Shown: piece after piece, positions 15,448-63,999 of the stretch
How positions within the stretch are numbered: the stretch's first letter is position 1
Layout of the letters: every line of letters begins with the position of its first letter
Assembly (NCBI RefSeq): GCF_031822435.1
Contig: NZ_JAVQLW010000002.1
Location: 467,791-531,790 of the forward strand
Direction of reading: 5' to 3'
Source of the DNA: Paracoccus sp. MBLB3053
GTDB taxonomy: Bacteria > Pseudomonadota > Alphaproteobacteria > Rhodobacterales > Rhodobacteraceae
Length of the DNA stretch: 64,000 nucleotides
Program-made: the position numbers and the translations under genes
Notes under the pieces: model-generated
The model's input: only the letters and a program-made list of their open reading frames with translations
What the model was told of the DNA's origin: nothing
Database searches by the model: none

Positions 15448-16224
15448 TCAAGCGGGGATGGCGACAAGGCCTCCATCCTCGCGTCGCAAGACCTGCATCG
15501 GCAGGCCGTAGATCTTGGCAAGCACATCGGGGCGCATCAGCTCGTCCGGGCTGCCCTGCATGGCAAGCCGCCCACCTTTGAGCGCAATCACATGGTCGCA
15601 GAATCGCGCCGCCATGTTCACTTCGTGAAGCACAACGACCGCACTGCGGTTCTGTGCATGGCACATCCTTCGGACAAGTGACAGAACCTCGACTTGATGG
15701 GCTATGTCGAGTGCCGAGATGGGCTCGTCCAGAAGCAGGGTCTGGGCTTGCTGTGCGACCATCATGGCAAGCCAGACGCGCTGCCGCTCACCGCCCGAAA
15801 GCGTGTCGACAAGCCGATCCGCGAAGGGCTCGACCGCGCATTCGGCAAGGGCCGCGCCAACTGCGGCGTGATCCCTTTCGCCGAAACGTCCCAGCGCCCC
15901 GTGCCAAGGATAGCGTCCCAATGCGACGAGTTCACGCACGGTCATGCCTTCCGCCGAGGGTGTCGTCTGAGGCATGAAAGCCAAGGCGCGAGCGTGTTCG
16001 CGTGCAGGCCAGTCCCAACTGTCCCTGCCGCAGAAACTGACCCGTCCCGAGGACATGGGCACTTGACGGGCCAATACCTTGAGCAGCGTGGATTTGCCCG
16101 AGCCGTTATGCCCAATCAACGCGACGACCTGCCCCTGCGGCAGATCAAGGCTGAGATTGTCGAGCAAGCGGCGGCCAGGGACATCGACCGAGAGTTCCGA
16201 AATGGTAAACAGGGCGTCCGTCAT
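15448..16224 (-). CDS. fhuC: Ferric siderophore ABC transporter ATPase, FhuC type
   Basis: The protein of 258 residues starts at the ATG at 16224, which overlaps the FhuB stop (ATGA); the open frame extends further upstream inside fhuB but this is a shadow. Walker A is GHNGSGKST, the signature is LSGGERQRVWLAMM and Walker B is TLLLDEPISALD. The family imports ferric hydroxamates or related siderophores, and the partner is a double-length FhuB. Order receptor, FhuD, FhuB, FhuC on one strand supports the call. Confidence 0.9.
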   Translation of the reverse strand: MTDALFTISELSVDVPGRRLLDNLSLDLPQGQVVALIGHNGSGKSTLLKVLARQVPMSSGRVSFCGRDSWDWPAREHARALAFMPQTTPSAEGMTVRELVALGRYPWHGALGRFGERDHAAVGAALAECAVEPFADRLVDTLSGGERQRVWLAMMVAQQAQTLLLDEPISALDIAHQVEVLSLVRRMCHAQNRSAVVVLHEVNMAARFCDHVIALKGGRLAMQGSPDELMRPDVLAKIYGLPMQVLRREDGGLVAIPA

Positions 16225-18194
16225 CGCCGCATCCTCATCATCAACCAGACGAGCCAGGGCGCCCCGAGAAGAGACGCGAAGAGACCCAAGGGAAGTTCGT
16301 AGGGGAAACCCGCCATTCGTGCTCCGAAATCCGCCGAGATCATCAGGATGGCGCCGATCAGGGCTGCGCCACAGATATGATCTCGCGCGCGCGCGAACCC
16401 CAACCGGCGGGCCATGTGAGGCGCCATTAGCCCCACGAAACTGAGCGGTCCGACAAGGACCGTTGCGGCCCCCGTCGCAATTCCGGCAATGGCAACAAGC
16501 CCGAGCCGCGCCCTTGTCAGCGGCACGCCCAGGCCGGAAGCGACTTCGGAACCCAAGGGAAGAAGTTCCAGCCAGCGCCAAGCACCCAAAGCCAGCATCA
16601 CGACGATCAAGGCAAGCGCTGCCAGCACAGCGGCCTGAGCCGGACCGACGTTCCCCGAAGAGCCGCTAAGCCAGGCAAGGACCTGCCAGGATTGCGCGCT
16701 TCCGGTCGCCATAAGGGCCGAAAGCAATGCGGCGGCCATGGATGACACCGCGATCCCTGCCAGCAAGATCCGCTCGGCCGGCATGTCGCGCCTGCTGGCA
16801 AATCTTGAAACAAGGATCAGCGCGACGGCGCCTCCCAGCATCGTCCCGATCATTCGTTCCGTCGGCCCAGGTGAAACCATGAGAAACAGCACAGCGGCAT
16901 AGCCGATCGAGGCGCCGCCAGAAACGCCCAGCACCTCCGGCGAAGCAAGGGGATTGGCGGTCATACGTTGCAAGATCGCGCCCGCAATCGCCAGCAGCGA
17001 ACCGGCTGCACCGGCCGCGATCAATCGGGGCAAGCGCAGCGGAAGGAAGTCGCGAAAACTGTTCCAATCGAGAACGGCCCATCCCTGCGGAACCCGTCCG
17101 ATCCAGACCAGAAGAACTGCCAATACGACAGTCGCGACAACAAGGGCAATCAGCACCCTGCCCGGTCGATCAAGCCGCGGCGCGGGCCCCTCGGCCGCTT
17201 CGGTGCCGGGCGGGGTCGAGCCACGAAGGCGCGGCAGCAGCCAGATCAGCAATGGTCCGCCGATGAGGCCGGTCAGGGCCCCGGTTGGGAACATTTCTCC
17301 GGTGAGGTCGGAGAGCCCGAGCACCACGCCGTCGCATGCAGAAAGCAGGATGGCCCCCAAGAAAGGAGCAAGCGCCAGCACCTGTCCCATTGTTCTAGCC
17401 CCAAGGCTGCGCGCGAACGCCGGGGCCGCCAGTCCGACAAAGCCGATCAACCCCAGTTCGGCTGAAACTGCGCCCGCCAGGAAAACGGCCAGGATGATCA
17501 CGGCGAAACGTATCGCGGCGACGTTCAGTCCTAGGGCTCCGGCTCCGGCTGCACCCAGGGAAAGCACCCTGAGCGGACGCGCGAGCAGCGCCGCCCCGGC
17601 TGCGCCCGAGATGAGCACCAAACCGAGCGAGCGCACACCGCCCCAATCCTGCTGCACCAGAGAGCCGCCGTTCCAGATCACCAGCGACAGGAGATACTCG
17701 CCCCGGGACAGCGTGATTGCGGTTGCGATCGCCGAGGCCGTCATGCCGACAAGCATCCCCGCGATCACCATCGTAACGGGCGCGAAGGCGCGCCGCGCAC
17801 CAATCAACATGACCAGCGCGGCCGCCGTGCCCGCTCCGGCAAGGGCAACGACCCAGCGGCCCTGCTCCAGAAGAGCCGGCGCGTAGATCGTCGTCATCAC
17901 CAATGCAAGCTGGGCTCCAGCCGATATTCCCAATGTCGTCGGATCGGCGACAGGATTGCGCAGCACGGCCTGCAAGAGTGCCCCCGCCAATCCAAGGATC
18001 GCGCCCGCCATCAAAGCGATTGCGCCGCGCGGCATCACCCCGAACGCAAAAAGGATCTGGTCGACCTTCATCGTGCTGGCGTCGAAGGGAAACGCGGGCC
18101 AGTCGGTTGGAAGCAGCCTAAGCGCTGCCAGAAACCAGAGAACCGCAGCGAAAAGAAATGCGGCGAGCAAGGCAAGCCAGGTACGTGTTGTCAT
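16221..18194 (-). CDS. fhuB: Double-length iron-siderophore permease, FhuB type
   Basis: The protein of 657 residues from the ATG at 18194 carries two FecCD permease halves in tandem, as in FhuB. The first half contains RNPVADPTTLGISAGAQ (about residues 83-99) and the second half contains NPLASPEVLGVSGGASIG; both match the FecCD signature. This one protein replaces the usual permease pair. It overlaps FhuD by 4 bases and FhuC by 4 bases, so the three are coupled. Many membrane segments run the length of the protein. The start chosen overlaps the FhuD stop; the frame extends upstream to 18329. Confidence 0.92.
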   Translation of the reverse strand: MTTRTWLALLAAFLFAAVLWFLAALRLLPTDWPAFPFDASTMKVDQILFAFGVMPRGAIALMAGAILGLAGALLQAVLRNPVADPTTLGISAGAQLALVMTTIYAPALLEQGRWVVALAGAGTAAALVMLIGARRAFAPVTMVIAGMLVGMTASAIATAITLSRGEYLLSLVIWNGGSLVQQDWGGVRSLGLVLISGAAGAALLARPLRVLSLGAAGAGALGLNVAAIRFAVIILAVFLAGAVSAELGLIGFVGLAAPAFARSLGARTMGQVLALAPFLGAILLSACDGVVLGLSDLTGEMFPTGALTGLIGGPLLIWLLPRLRGSTPPGTEAAEGPAPRLDRPGRVLIALVVATVVLAVLLVWIGRVPQGWAVLDWNSFRDFLPLRLPRLIAAGAAGSLLAIAGAILQRMTANPLASPEVLGVSGGASIGYAAVLFLMVSPGPTERMIGTMLGGAVALILVSRFASRRDMPAERILLAGIAVSSMAAALLSALMATGSAQSWQVLAWLSGSSGNVGPAQAAVLAALALIVVMLALGAWRWLELLPLGSEVASGLGVPLTRARLGLVAIAGIATGAATVLVGPLSFVGLMAPHMARRLGFARARDHICGAALIGAILMISADFGARMAGFPYELPLGLFASLLGAPWLVWLMMRMRR

Positions 18195-61152: not shown

Positions 61153-61481
61153 CTTGTCCCTCTGAGATCATGCTAGTGCATGAAAGGCATCGCTGCGATC
61201 CATAATTGCTGCTTCCCATACCCATCTTCGACGCGTCAGCTTGTCCTGCCGCCCGATTGGGCACCTTGTCCGGCAACAAGGCGAACCGGCGAAAAGATCT
61301 TCCGCAATCAAAACACCTTCGCATTGCTGCTTGCTGTCCTGTCGTCGTGGGCTGCCGCCGCGCATGCCGTGGCGGTGACGAACTCGGGAAAAAGGTTCGC
61401 GTCTCTTTTTCCATCCCGGCGATAACCTGCGTTTGTTGCGCTCACGCTGGCTCGAGCCTTCCCTTTGCTGCTGCGCGCAGG
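61153..61481. other. Region without a supported gene
   Basis: These 329 bases lie upstream of the LysR gene and hold its promoter. Open frames on both strands are short and show no domain. Confidence 0.4.
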
Positions 61482-62154
61482 TCATAACCGTGGTCTTCCA
61501 AGGTCTCGATCGGGCAACCGATCAGCCGACGGGCGGCCATGTGAGGGCCCAGAGCGGAGATCGTCTCGACGGCGGGCGCGCCCCGGTCGCCAGCAGCGCG
61601 AGATCGCCCGAAATGCGCCGGCGATCAGGCGCGGCGCGGCCTCGATCACGGTGACCGAGATCTCCGTCATCCGGGCCATGGCGGCGATTTTAAGGCCGAT
61701 TAAGCCGCTGCCCACAACCACGGCATGGTGGGTCGTGGCGAGGCGCTCACGCATCCTGGCGGCATTGGCCAGGGTCCGCATCCCGAATACGCCCGGCGCG
61801 TCGCGGCCGGGGAAGGGCGGCGGCGCGTTCCTTGCGCCGGTCGCGATGATCAGGCGGTCATAGCCATGCCGCGCCATCCGCCGCGATCACTTCGCAGGCC
61901 GGGCGGTCGATGCGCGCCACGCTGATAGCTGCATGCAAGTCGATGCCGGTGCGCTCGTAGAAGCTTGCCGGTTTCAGGATCAGCGCCCCTGCATCGCCAT
62001 CCACCATGTAGGCCTTGGACAGGGGCGGGCGCTGATTGGGCAGGCCGGGTTCCTCGCCCAGCATGAGGATCTGCCCCGCGAAGCCTTCCTGCCGCAGGCT
62101 GGCGGCGGCCTGCTGGCCGCCTTGGCCGGTGCCGATGATGACGATCCGTTGCAT
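61482..62154 (-). pseudogene. Ferredoxin reductase (FAD/NAD) with frameshift and 3' truncation
   Basis: The first frame starts QRIVIIGTGQGGQQAAASLR at 62154 (FAD-binding GxGxxG), continues to ADGAAWL and stops at 61858. A shift near 61870 resumes HGYDRLIIATGARNAPPPFP, then TTHHAVVVGSGLIGLKIAAM (NAD-binding GxGxxG). After about 80 further residues the similarity ends in an Arg-rich tail, so the C-terminal domain is lost. This type of enzyme reduces a [2Fe-2S] ferredoxin for a cytochrome P450 or dioxygenase, and remnants of both partners lie directly upstream. Confidence 0.8.
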
Positions 62155-62166
62155 GGGCCGGCGTCC

Positions 62167-62289
62167 TCAGAGCTGGGCTTCAGGAAGGTGGATGCTGACG
62201 CCATCCAGCTCGGCGCGCATGACGCTTTCGCCCTCGGCGGCGGTGACCACGGTTTCGGTGCCATCGGCGGAAATGAAGGTGATTTTCAT
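62167..62289 (-). pseudogene. [2Fe-2S] ferredoxin with in-frame internal deletion
   Basis: The 40-residue frame joins the N-terminus of an adrenodoxin-like ferredoxin (KITFISADGTETVVTAAEGE, then SVMRA) directly to its C-terminus (ELDGVSIHLPEAQL). The segment between, about 60 residues with all four cluster-binding cysteines, is gone without loss of frame. The protein cannot bind an iron-sulfur cluster. Confidence 0.85.
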
Positions 62290-62315
62290 GTCTGGTTTCC
62301 TTGCTATGTACTGGG

Positions 62316-62426
62316 TCAGCCCCGTCGGACGGGCAGGATGATCGGGCCGCGGAAGCCGAAGCCGCGCCATTGCACGATCGCGGGATCGGGCAGGCTCATC
62401 CTGGGGATGGCCAGAAGCTCAGGCAT
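62316..62426 (-). pseudogene. Chimera of a LivF start and a cytochrome P450 C-terminus
   Basis: The ATG at 62426 overlaps the LivG stop (ATGCCTGA), where LivF normally starts, and encodes PELLAI. The next 29 residues (PRMSLPDPAIVQWRGFGFRG, then PIILPVRRG) look like the C-terminal end of a cytochrome P450. The P450, ferredoxin and reductase would form a normal three-component oxygenase system. Both short pieces make the call tentative. Confidence 0.55.
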
Positions 62427-63110
62427 GTTCGCCGCTCCCCAGATAGACTTCCTTCACGCGCGGATCGGCCATGATGTCGGCCGTGGTGCCGTCGGCGGCA
62501 GGCTCGTCGAGCAGCAGCACAAGGCCCATCCAGAACATCCAGTATTGCGGCGTGATCGCCGAGAACAAGTCCTGCAGAAGCTTGAAGTCGCTCGCCCCGA
62601 TCAGCCCGCCGTAAAGATAGCCGACCCCGCCCAGCACGAGGACCAGCAGCACATCGGCCGAGCGGTGGAAGGCCGGAACATCCAGAGAGACGAATATCGT
62701 GGTCTGGCATCGCGACGCCCAGCGTCACCATCAGCCGCGTCAGGTCCGAGGCGCGCAGCAGTAGAAGCGGTCCCGTCGCCAGCCCCAGCAGCCCCGCCGC
62801 CCGCCCCGACAGCGCGAGCCCGGTCAATAGCTCTCCGGTCAGGTGAATCGAGGCCAGCTCCGCGACATAGGCGCCGAGCCCGAAGAACGCGCCATGGCCC
62901 AGCGAGACGACGCCGGCAAAGCCGATGATGAGATCGAGCAGCGCGAAAAGGCCGAGAATGGCGATCTCGGACAGCAGCAGGTGGCGCTCGGGCAACAGGA
63001 AGAAGCTTGCCGCCTCCGCCAGCCAGATCAGGATCGCGGCTGGCGCGGCCCTGCGCCGTCTCAGGCTTGGTCGCGCGGGGCAGGGGCAGGGTGGTACAGG
63101 TCATCTGCAA
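62419..63110 (-). pseudogene. livM with internal losses, fused to livG ends
   Basis: The first part, in two frames, encodes LivM: SFFLLPERHLLLSEIAILGL and GFAGVVSLGHGAFFGLGAYV up to about 62700. There the frame is lost and a large middle part is missing. It resumes as HRSADVLLVLVLGGVGYLYG, then TPQYWMFWMGLVLL, the LivM C-terminus. This joins LLDEPAA (LivG Walker B) and, a few bases later, DGTTADIMADPRVKEVYLGS, the LivG C-terminus. At least three deletion points therefore lie within 700 bases. LivM and LivG are parts of the branched-chain amino-acid or urea ABC importer. Confidence 0.8.
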
Positions 63111-63116
63111 TATCCT

Positions 63117-63861
63117 TCAGCGCGCCGGGGCGATCAGGCCCTGCGAGCGCAGGATCAAAAGCACGATCATCAGCAGGTAGATCAGGAAGGCGCCTAGCTC
63201 GGGGATGTAGTTTTTCCCGGCGACATCGGCGGTGCCGATGATCAGCGCGGCAAGGAAGGGACCGGTCAGCCCGGCGGTGCCGCCGATGGTCACGACGATC
63301 AGGACATAGACCATGATCTTCAGCGGAAAGGTCGGGTCGAAGCCCATGATCTCGATCCCCAGCGCGCCGCCCAGGCCGGCAAGGCTCGAACCGACCGCGA
63401 AGGTCGCAGCGAAGATGGCCCCGACATTGACCCCGAGGCCGCGCGCCGCGCGCTGGTCATCGACCGCCGCCCGCAGCCTCGCGCCGAAGCGGGCGCGCGA
63501 CAGGACGAGCTGCAGCCCGACGACCAGCGCCGCGCAGACCAGGATCAGGAAGGCGCGGTAACGCCCGATCGCCACCCCGGCCAGTTCGATGCGGCCCTGC
63601 AGCCAGTCGGGCAGGGTGATCAGCATCTGGCTTGATCCCAGGCTCCAATCCGCCGCGGCGACGGCCATGAAGACCAGCGCGATTGAGAACAGCACCTGGT
63701 CGAGATGGCTGAGGGTCTCGGGGTCGATGGCGATCGAGCTGCGCGCGCTTTCCCAGGACAGGCCCCTTATCGGCTCGATCATCTTGTCGCCATCGCCATC
63801 GCCATCGCCGTCGCCGCCGGTCTTTTCCAGAGCGCCATAGATCGCGTGCATCCCGCGGCGG
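63117..63861 (-). pseudogene. In-frame fusion of livK C-terminus and livH
   Basis: One frame begins MHAIYGALEKTGG, then a GDGDGDGD run and IEPIRGLSWESARSSIAIDP, the C-terminal region of a LivK-type binding protein. Without a break it continues LSHLDQVLFSIALVFMAVAA, the middle of the LivH permease, and runs to the normal LivH end (LILRSQGLIAPAR). The N-terminal three quarters of LivK and about the first 100 residues of LivH are missing. The GD run is encoded by a repeated GATGGC hexamer and is longer than the usual short GGDTDGDK. Confidence 0.8.
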
Positions 63862-63999
63862 CATGGGCTGGCCACGCCCTTCAACGACCGCGTCGTCGAA
63901 CTGGTGCGCGAGGCGCAGTCGCGTCGCACAGTTCCGGATTTCTCGAATATCGACCGTTTCGACGACCTGCTGGGCGTCGCAGCGACAACAGGAGCCTGA
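63862..63999 (+). pseudogene. 2-dehydropantoate 2-reductase, C-terminal fragment
   Basis: The frame HGLATPFNDRVVELVREAQS to the stop at 63997-63999 matches the C-terminal helix region of ketopantoate reductases (typical pattern TPxNDxVxxLV). The rest of the gene is missing; the sequence changes at about 63862 to the livK fragment on the other strand. Window end prevents seeing further context. Confidence 0.6.

Follow-up and report, generated by a model that had tools for sequence, protein, structure and literature searches.

Erosion of bacterial pseudogenes under a deletional bias was reportedly described by Mira et al. in 2001. Kuo and Ochman (2010; PMC2916853) treat the shrinkage of non-functional genes through deletion, and record few Salmonella pseudogenes with more than a fifth of their length lost. 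The locus that we describe from Paracoccus sp. MBLB3053 is similar in that its non-functional genes have shrunk by deletion, but differs in extent: some 69% of a relic operon has been removed, by about nine losses within a short neutral time.

A second point of comparison is the intact operon, which in the relic's orientation reads FAD oxidoreductase, 2Fe-2S ferredoxin, P450, P450, two ABC ATPases, two branched-chain permeases, a substrate-binding protein and a GntR regulator. This layout is carried by plasmid NZ_CP087599.1 of Paracoccus sp. MA and by pYEE2 of P. yeei. The relic has the same gene order, and its retained pieces are 73–88% identical to these operons in DNA, but genes that are full length there are scraps in MBLB3053. 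With the nine MA proteins as queries, the same genes were found at 95–100% of the MA protein length in P. limosus (G004), P. binzhouensis (G075), G089 and G079, which together with MA and P. yeei make up the six references aligned end to end. All nine MA proteins have full-length copies in the other five, save that one P450 (P450b) is missing from P. limosus and G079 – the match there, of only 25%, is to the other P450 – and that the LivK match of P. limosus contains one stop character. A seventh reference, G034, was informative for LivH, LivM and LivG only. Its Liv cluster (G034:C7) is rearranged, with LivK on the opposite strand and beyond LivF, and the 12.4 kb compared from its Liv locus contain no P450, ferredoxin or reductase. 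Most of the retained pieces also align with a locus of Amaricoccus solimangrovi, in an alignment of DNA rather than a gene-by-gene comparison.

The relic and its setting

The window, by which we mean the whole 64,000-base stretch analysed, covers positions 467791–531790 of NZ_JAVQLW010000002.1 (C2), a contig of 531790 bases in a genome of eight contigs and 4.6 Mb. At window 61470–63999, on the minus strand and with its right edge at the final base of C2 (531790), lies what is, judged by its alignments, the relic of a LivK-LivH-LivM-LivG-LivF operon with one or two P450s, a 2Fe-2S ferredoxin and a FAD-dependent ferredoxin reductase, beside a panE-BKACE operon. Its parts (Table 1) were placed by aligning the minus strand to the seven references with an aligner that allows long jumps in the reference at a fixed cost; most aligned blocks share about 67–88% of their DNA, with BLAST E values down to 0. 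At its left edge the relic closes with the 3′ part of the reductase gene, stopping about 19 bases before the point where the MA gene ends.

Table 1. Parts and junctions of the operon relic (window coordinates).
Feature	Position	Strand	Basis
FAD-dependent ferredoxin reductase, C-terminal scrap	61470..61573	-	jump alignment, MA sense 15932-16035
Junction J8, inside reductase, 364 bp lost, out of frame	61573..61574	-	364 in all five references showing it
Reductase island, 41 bp	61574..61614	-	alignment, MA 15527-15567
Junction J7, inside reductase, 142 bp lost, out of frame	61614..61615	-	142 in five references, 132 in G079
Reductase N-terminal part, one 2-bp frameshift near 61875	61615..62154	-	alignment; partial Pfam Pyr_redox_2 matches
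2Fe-2S ferredoxin remnant	62167..62290	-	alignment to references
Junction J6, in-frame 198-bp ferredoxin deletion, cysteine-rich middle gone	~62212-62222	-	198 in six references
Cytochrome P450 3′ tail	62316..62407	-	alignment
Junction J5, LivF start joined to P450 tail, in frame	62407..62408	-	2990-2999 bp lost vs four references
LivF, first ~6 codons (MPELLA)	62408..62426	-	alignment
LivG 3′ end	62419..62497	-	alignment
LivG Walker B island, ~25 nt, LLLDEPAA, between J4a and J4b	62498..62524	-	separate in G034 and G079 alignments
LivM C-terminal part	62525..62706	-	alignment
Junction J3, inside LivM, 320 bp lost, out of frame	62706..62707	-	320 in 7/7 references
LivM N-terminal part, 3-bp deletion at 62940	62707..63104	-	alignment; Pfam BPD_transp_2 6-78
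Junction J2, ~35 bp lost near LivM start, frame shifted, ill-defined	~63025-63090	-	alignment
LivH, C-terminal 198 codons, no stop, no indel	63117..63713	-	alignment; Pfam BPD_transp_2 82-269
Junction J1, LivK to LivH, 450-474 bp lost by reference (459 vs MA), in frame	63713..63714	-	alignment
LivK internal piece	63714..63855	-	alignment
Junction J0, LivK to panE; sequence between LivK 5′ part and panE 5′ part missing	63855..63856	.	alignment
panE-like 2-dehydropantoate 2-reductase, last 47 codons and stop	63856..63999	+	G034:C49 DNA match from 63871

A preliminary description, made from the sequence of the window, had listed seven or more genes reduced to joined fragments. All of the joins that it named are present: the frameshifted and truncated reductase, the internally deleted ferredoxin, the P450 tail fused to a LivF-like start, the internal loss from LivM, the LivM-LivG and LivK-LivH joins and the panE tail. 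Its count was slightly low. We count about ten deletions, nine within the operon (about 35 to 2990 bp) and one at the LivK-panE join. Against MA the eight jumps are 459, 30, 320, 740, 2990, 198, 142 and 364 bp, a sum of 5243 of 7626 bp (about 69%), so that some 2.4 of 7.6 kb survives, in operon order. LivF is nearly lost, and one P450 is wholly absent if the ancestor had two; against the two single-P450 references the loss at J5 is 1916 or 1799 bp.

Two junctions call for comment. In five references the passage from LivM to LivG is a single jump of 737–740 bp; we read it as two junctions around the Walker B island, J4a (584 bp lost against G079, 569 against G034) and J4b (150 bp). At J2 the loss measures 26–38 bp in five references (30 against MA), G079 and G034 giving no single jump; support for it comes from the spacing between the LivM start codon and a conserved P-A-x-I stretch, which is 61 bases in the relic and 96 (32 residues) in MA.

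The operon order that had been described as kept matches the six references aligned end to end: along these alignments we saw no inversion, duplication or change of order. Nor did any inserted stretch longer than 13 bp lie between aligned blocks, in agreement with the earlier remark that no IS end stands at a junction, and deletion mediated by an IS or transposon, which would be expected to leave such an end, finds no counterpart here. The largest consistent insert is a net gain of 12 bp, against five of five references, in a 6-bp repeat (GATGGC on the minus strand; an Asp-Gly run) at window ~63785–63812 in LivK.

The position of the relic at a contig end would favour the suggestion, also made in the preliminary description, that the locus arose as an artefact of assembly or cloning. 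Most probably, however, C2 is circular and complete, with its numbering set to begin at a gene, because a single BLAST alignment with G034:C49 starts at window 63871, crosses the last base and continues in the start of C2, to about C2:921. The first base of C2 is the ATG of a BKACE gene (Pfam BKACE match), the panE stop lies one base before that ATG, and the remnant of panE upstream of BKACE is cut by J0; on the G034:C49 side the aligned stretch takes in BKACE and the end of a panE-family gene. The twelve flanking proteins tested against Pfam between 47.7 and 61.2 kb, small intervening ORFs being outside the test, have near-complete domains: ten proteins at 47.7–58.6 kb, an amidase (whose match starts at profile position 44 of 445) and a LysR regulator. 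The matches at the joins span 0–8 bases, and assemblers collapse read overlaps only over longer matches than these. No junction lies at a long repeat or a contig gap. We regard an artefact as very improbable.

The flanks were also looked for in other genomes. Relatives of BKACE are present in 53 of 125 Paracoccus genomes, MBLB3053 counted, and the LysR-amidase stretch has partial amidase matches only, in 13 other Paracoccus genomes. None of the 15 loci searched with the flank proteins, a set that leaves other BKACE loci aside, held the operon and panE-BKACE together: BKACE matched just two of them (G034:C49 and one other), and the operon-bearing loci gave a single weak amidase match, on pYEE2 of P. 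yeei (40% over 196 aa). The BKACE gene (C2:1–942) scores above the cut-off of NCBIfam NF053538 (3,5-dioxohexanoate:acetyl-CoA acetone transferase). Elsewhere in the window, positions 16001–18000 have an AT skew of 0.31, the highest of its 32 2-kb bins.

Junctions and reading frames

Collinearity with intact relatives, and frames that are broken or essential parts that are lost, are the marks of a decayed operon; both are found here. A different reading takes the short genes for a compact form that has been retained for some function. The LivH scrap is open for 198 codons, its codon-position distances are like those between functional copies, and four of the seven joins tested are in frame (LivK-LivH, LivM-LivG with its two junctions taken together, LivF-P450 and ferredoxin), the first of these giving an open frame of 270 codons at window 63117–63929. 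With one join in three expected to be in frame, however, four of seven has a binomial chance of about 17%, and because of this the in-frame joins carry little weight. The frame is lost at J3, at both joins in the reductase and where bases are missing near the LivM start; the transporter would be without most of both ATPases and the ferredoxin without its cysteine-rich middle. Short genes conserved as such in other genomes would have spoken for a kept function. The LivM-LivH part is matched (E <= 1e-20) in nine of 125 Paracoccus genomes, MBLB3053 included, and the LivM junction is in none of the eight others: the LivM pieces that adjoin in the relic sit about 320 bases apart in all eight (in G102 and G137 as seen for this part alone). 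Retention for a function is thus a reading to which we give very little credence.

The sequences at the junctions offer some indication of how the deletions came about. Exact matches at the joins measure 0–8 bp, the strongest being the 8 bp of the ferredoxin join in P. yeei. Within a radius of 10 bp the matches sum to 23–30 over seven junctions, against about 16–17 for random breakpoints (P 0.0003–0.027, in five of five references). Within a radius of 3 bp, P was 0.06, 0.12, 0 of 10000 draws, 0.07 and 0.03, below 0.05 in two of the five. Such short matches fit slippage or end joining without proving either. Long repeats are not present within 61–64 kb, where direct pairs reach 34 nt at most (at 71%), and 61400–64000 matches the rest of the genome over 34–58 bp only.

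End joining brings to mind the two Ku genes on C2, about 9 kb apart (C2:150774–151280 and 160474–161016). They would suit the idea that the deletion rate of the locus or lineage was raised, by error-prone end joining, replication stress or selection against the operon's product, and the number of junctions, which is on the high side, suits it as well. Yet Ku is common: 67 of 125 Paracoccus genomes have it, many of them in at least two copies, as do seven of the eight other holders of LivM-LivH. As a cause of the deletions we therefore set Ku aside, since MBLB3053 is not singled out by it. Two transporter families elsewhere in the genome likewise show no decayed copy. Of the genome's 43 PF02653 (BPD_transp_2) rows, the pair at the relic is broken; no internal stop interrupts the remaining 41, which include two short rows that are halves of one open frame; for PF00528 (BPD_transp_1) all 122 rows are without internal stop, and the shortest covers 131 of 184 positions. 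We consider a raised deletion rate distinctly unlikely.

A replicon-wide segmentation by codon usage, run for other frame-broken loci, proved powerless: 'stopless ends' turned up as background at about 0.48 per 2.5 kb, and the relic's own score was only 2. From the same segmentation, with its high background, C2:43318–46074 and 303457–307353 emerge as coding-like stretches without a stop that may be broken genes.

Age of the relic and the number of deletions

In raw form the codon-position distances of the relic are what one sees between functional copies. On a tree with separate branch lengths for each codon position, the relic branch is 0.112/0.092/0.370 and that of G089 0.091/0.053/0.330. 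In the retained codons the surplus of change at first and second positions is only slight: a ratio estimate, from which 15 bases on each side of the junctions, the LivM start, the Walker B region and the LivK repeat were dropped, gives for the neutral time that has passed since the operon was inactivated t = 0.024 substitutions per site (bootstrap 95% -0.010 to 0.051; 658 codons), and the same estimate for five intact references gives -0.020 to 0.009. With the controls near zero, t therefore points to a late death of the operon relative to its divergence from relatives; the interval includes zero neutral time. Gene by gene the estimates are too imprecise to show whether some genes died first: LivH -0.004 (-0.048 to 0.039), LivM -0.003, reductase 0.040 (-0.053 to 0.115) and the P450 tail, with 25 codons only, 0.120 (0.005 to 0.325), while the fit for LivK (28 codons) is meaningless. 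At t = 0.024, 0.9 stops are expected; one was found, in the badly aligned LivM start, a part outside that expectation. Point lesions are few.

Could so many deletions gather in so short a time at ordinary rates? In PMC10292909, wild-type E. coli lines are reported with 10 non-IS deletions and a substitution rate of 9.00e-4 per genome per division; about 270 substitutions derived from it (83 variants at 2.77e-4) yield a deletion/substitution ratio of about 0.037. We simulated 7626 bp with deletion sizes assumed log-uniform from 50 to 3000 bp, rejecting deletions that reached the flanks, at ratios of 0.018, 0.037 and 0.068. With the E. coli-derived ratio of 0.037, at least eight junctions arose in 1.3% of runs for t 0.024 and in 12% for t 0.050; the corresponding figures were 7% and 17% with 0.068, and 0% and 1.1% with 0.018. 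At t 0.010 the figure was at most 0.7% for all three ratios. The low tail probability is softened by the fact that the locus was picked for being striking.

The preliminary description had held that repeated deletion inside one region is not typical pseudogene decay and suggests a deletion-prone process. One part of this has marginal support: the locus is deletion-rich. As to the other, upper-bound simulations reach the count in 12–17% of runs, and a special process is not required.

Probable stepwise decay or a possible single event

We think it probable that an inactivated operon was eroded by about ten independent spontaneous deletions. A functional Liv-transporter/P450/ferredoxin/reductase operon would have been inactivated in the MBLB3053 lineage, and deletions of tens to thousands of bases would then have followed successively and independently, each probably formed where short matches allowed slippage or end joining. 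Deletions inside the dead operon would be tolerated; those reaching LysR/amidase or BKACE were presumably lost by selection. In favour of such stepwise decay, the large lesions are all deletions and what remains is in the order of the intact operon. What counts against it is the 1.3% at the point estimate, and the 0–1.1% at the lower ratio with t up to 0.050. On this side too are the excess of matches at the joins, which at the 3-bp radius reaches P below 0.05 in two references only, and the four in-frame joins of seven. The locus can be explained by ordinary decay of a relic that is fairly young, on the deletion-rich side of what such decay gives.

The principal alternative to stepwise decay is that a single complex event – for example repeated template switching, or break-and-rejoin in the repair of one damaged stretch – made all or most of the junctions. 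Many large deletions beside few point lesions would be so explained, and the ~25-nt Walker B island and the 41-bp reductase island resemble the templated pieces left by complex rearrangements; that ordinary-rate simulations reach the count in so few runs at the point estimate also argues for it. Against it, every piece retains its place and direction, without duplication or inversion, a pattern that independent deletions would give too; the neutral time is above zero at the point estimate, and the upper-bound simulations reach the count in 12–17% of runs. We hold it to be unlikely. An extreme form, in which one catastrophic repair or replication event shredded an operon of 8–9 kb whose pieces were rejoined in order, would be a bacterial counterpart of a clustered complex deletion, and is no less doubtful. 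Complex microhomology-mediated rearrangement is known from the eukaryotic literature. The relic shares with it clustered deletions, short matches at the joins and tiny islands, but has no inversion, duplication or change of order.

The relic is a very legible instance of operon loss: junctions placed against the seven references, as the preliminary description had proposed for full-length homologues, can be read directly, and the surviving pieces are still about 67–88% identical to them. Should all junctions prove to have arisen together, a one-step mode of operon loss would be documented. The relic could also be used to work out, for an alphaproteobacterium, how many large deletions occur per substitution.
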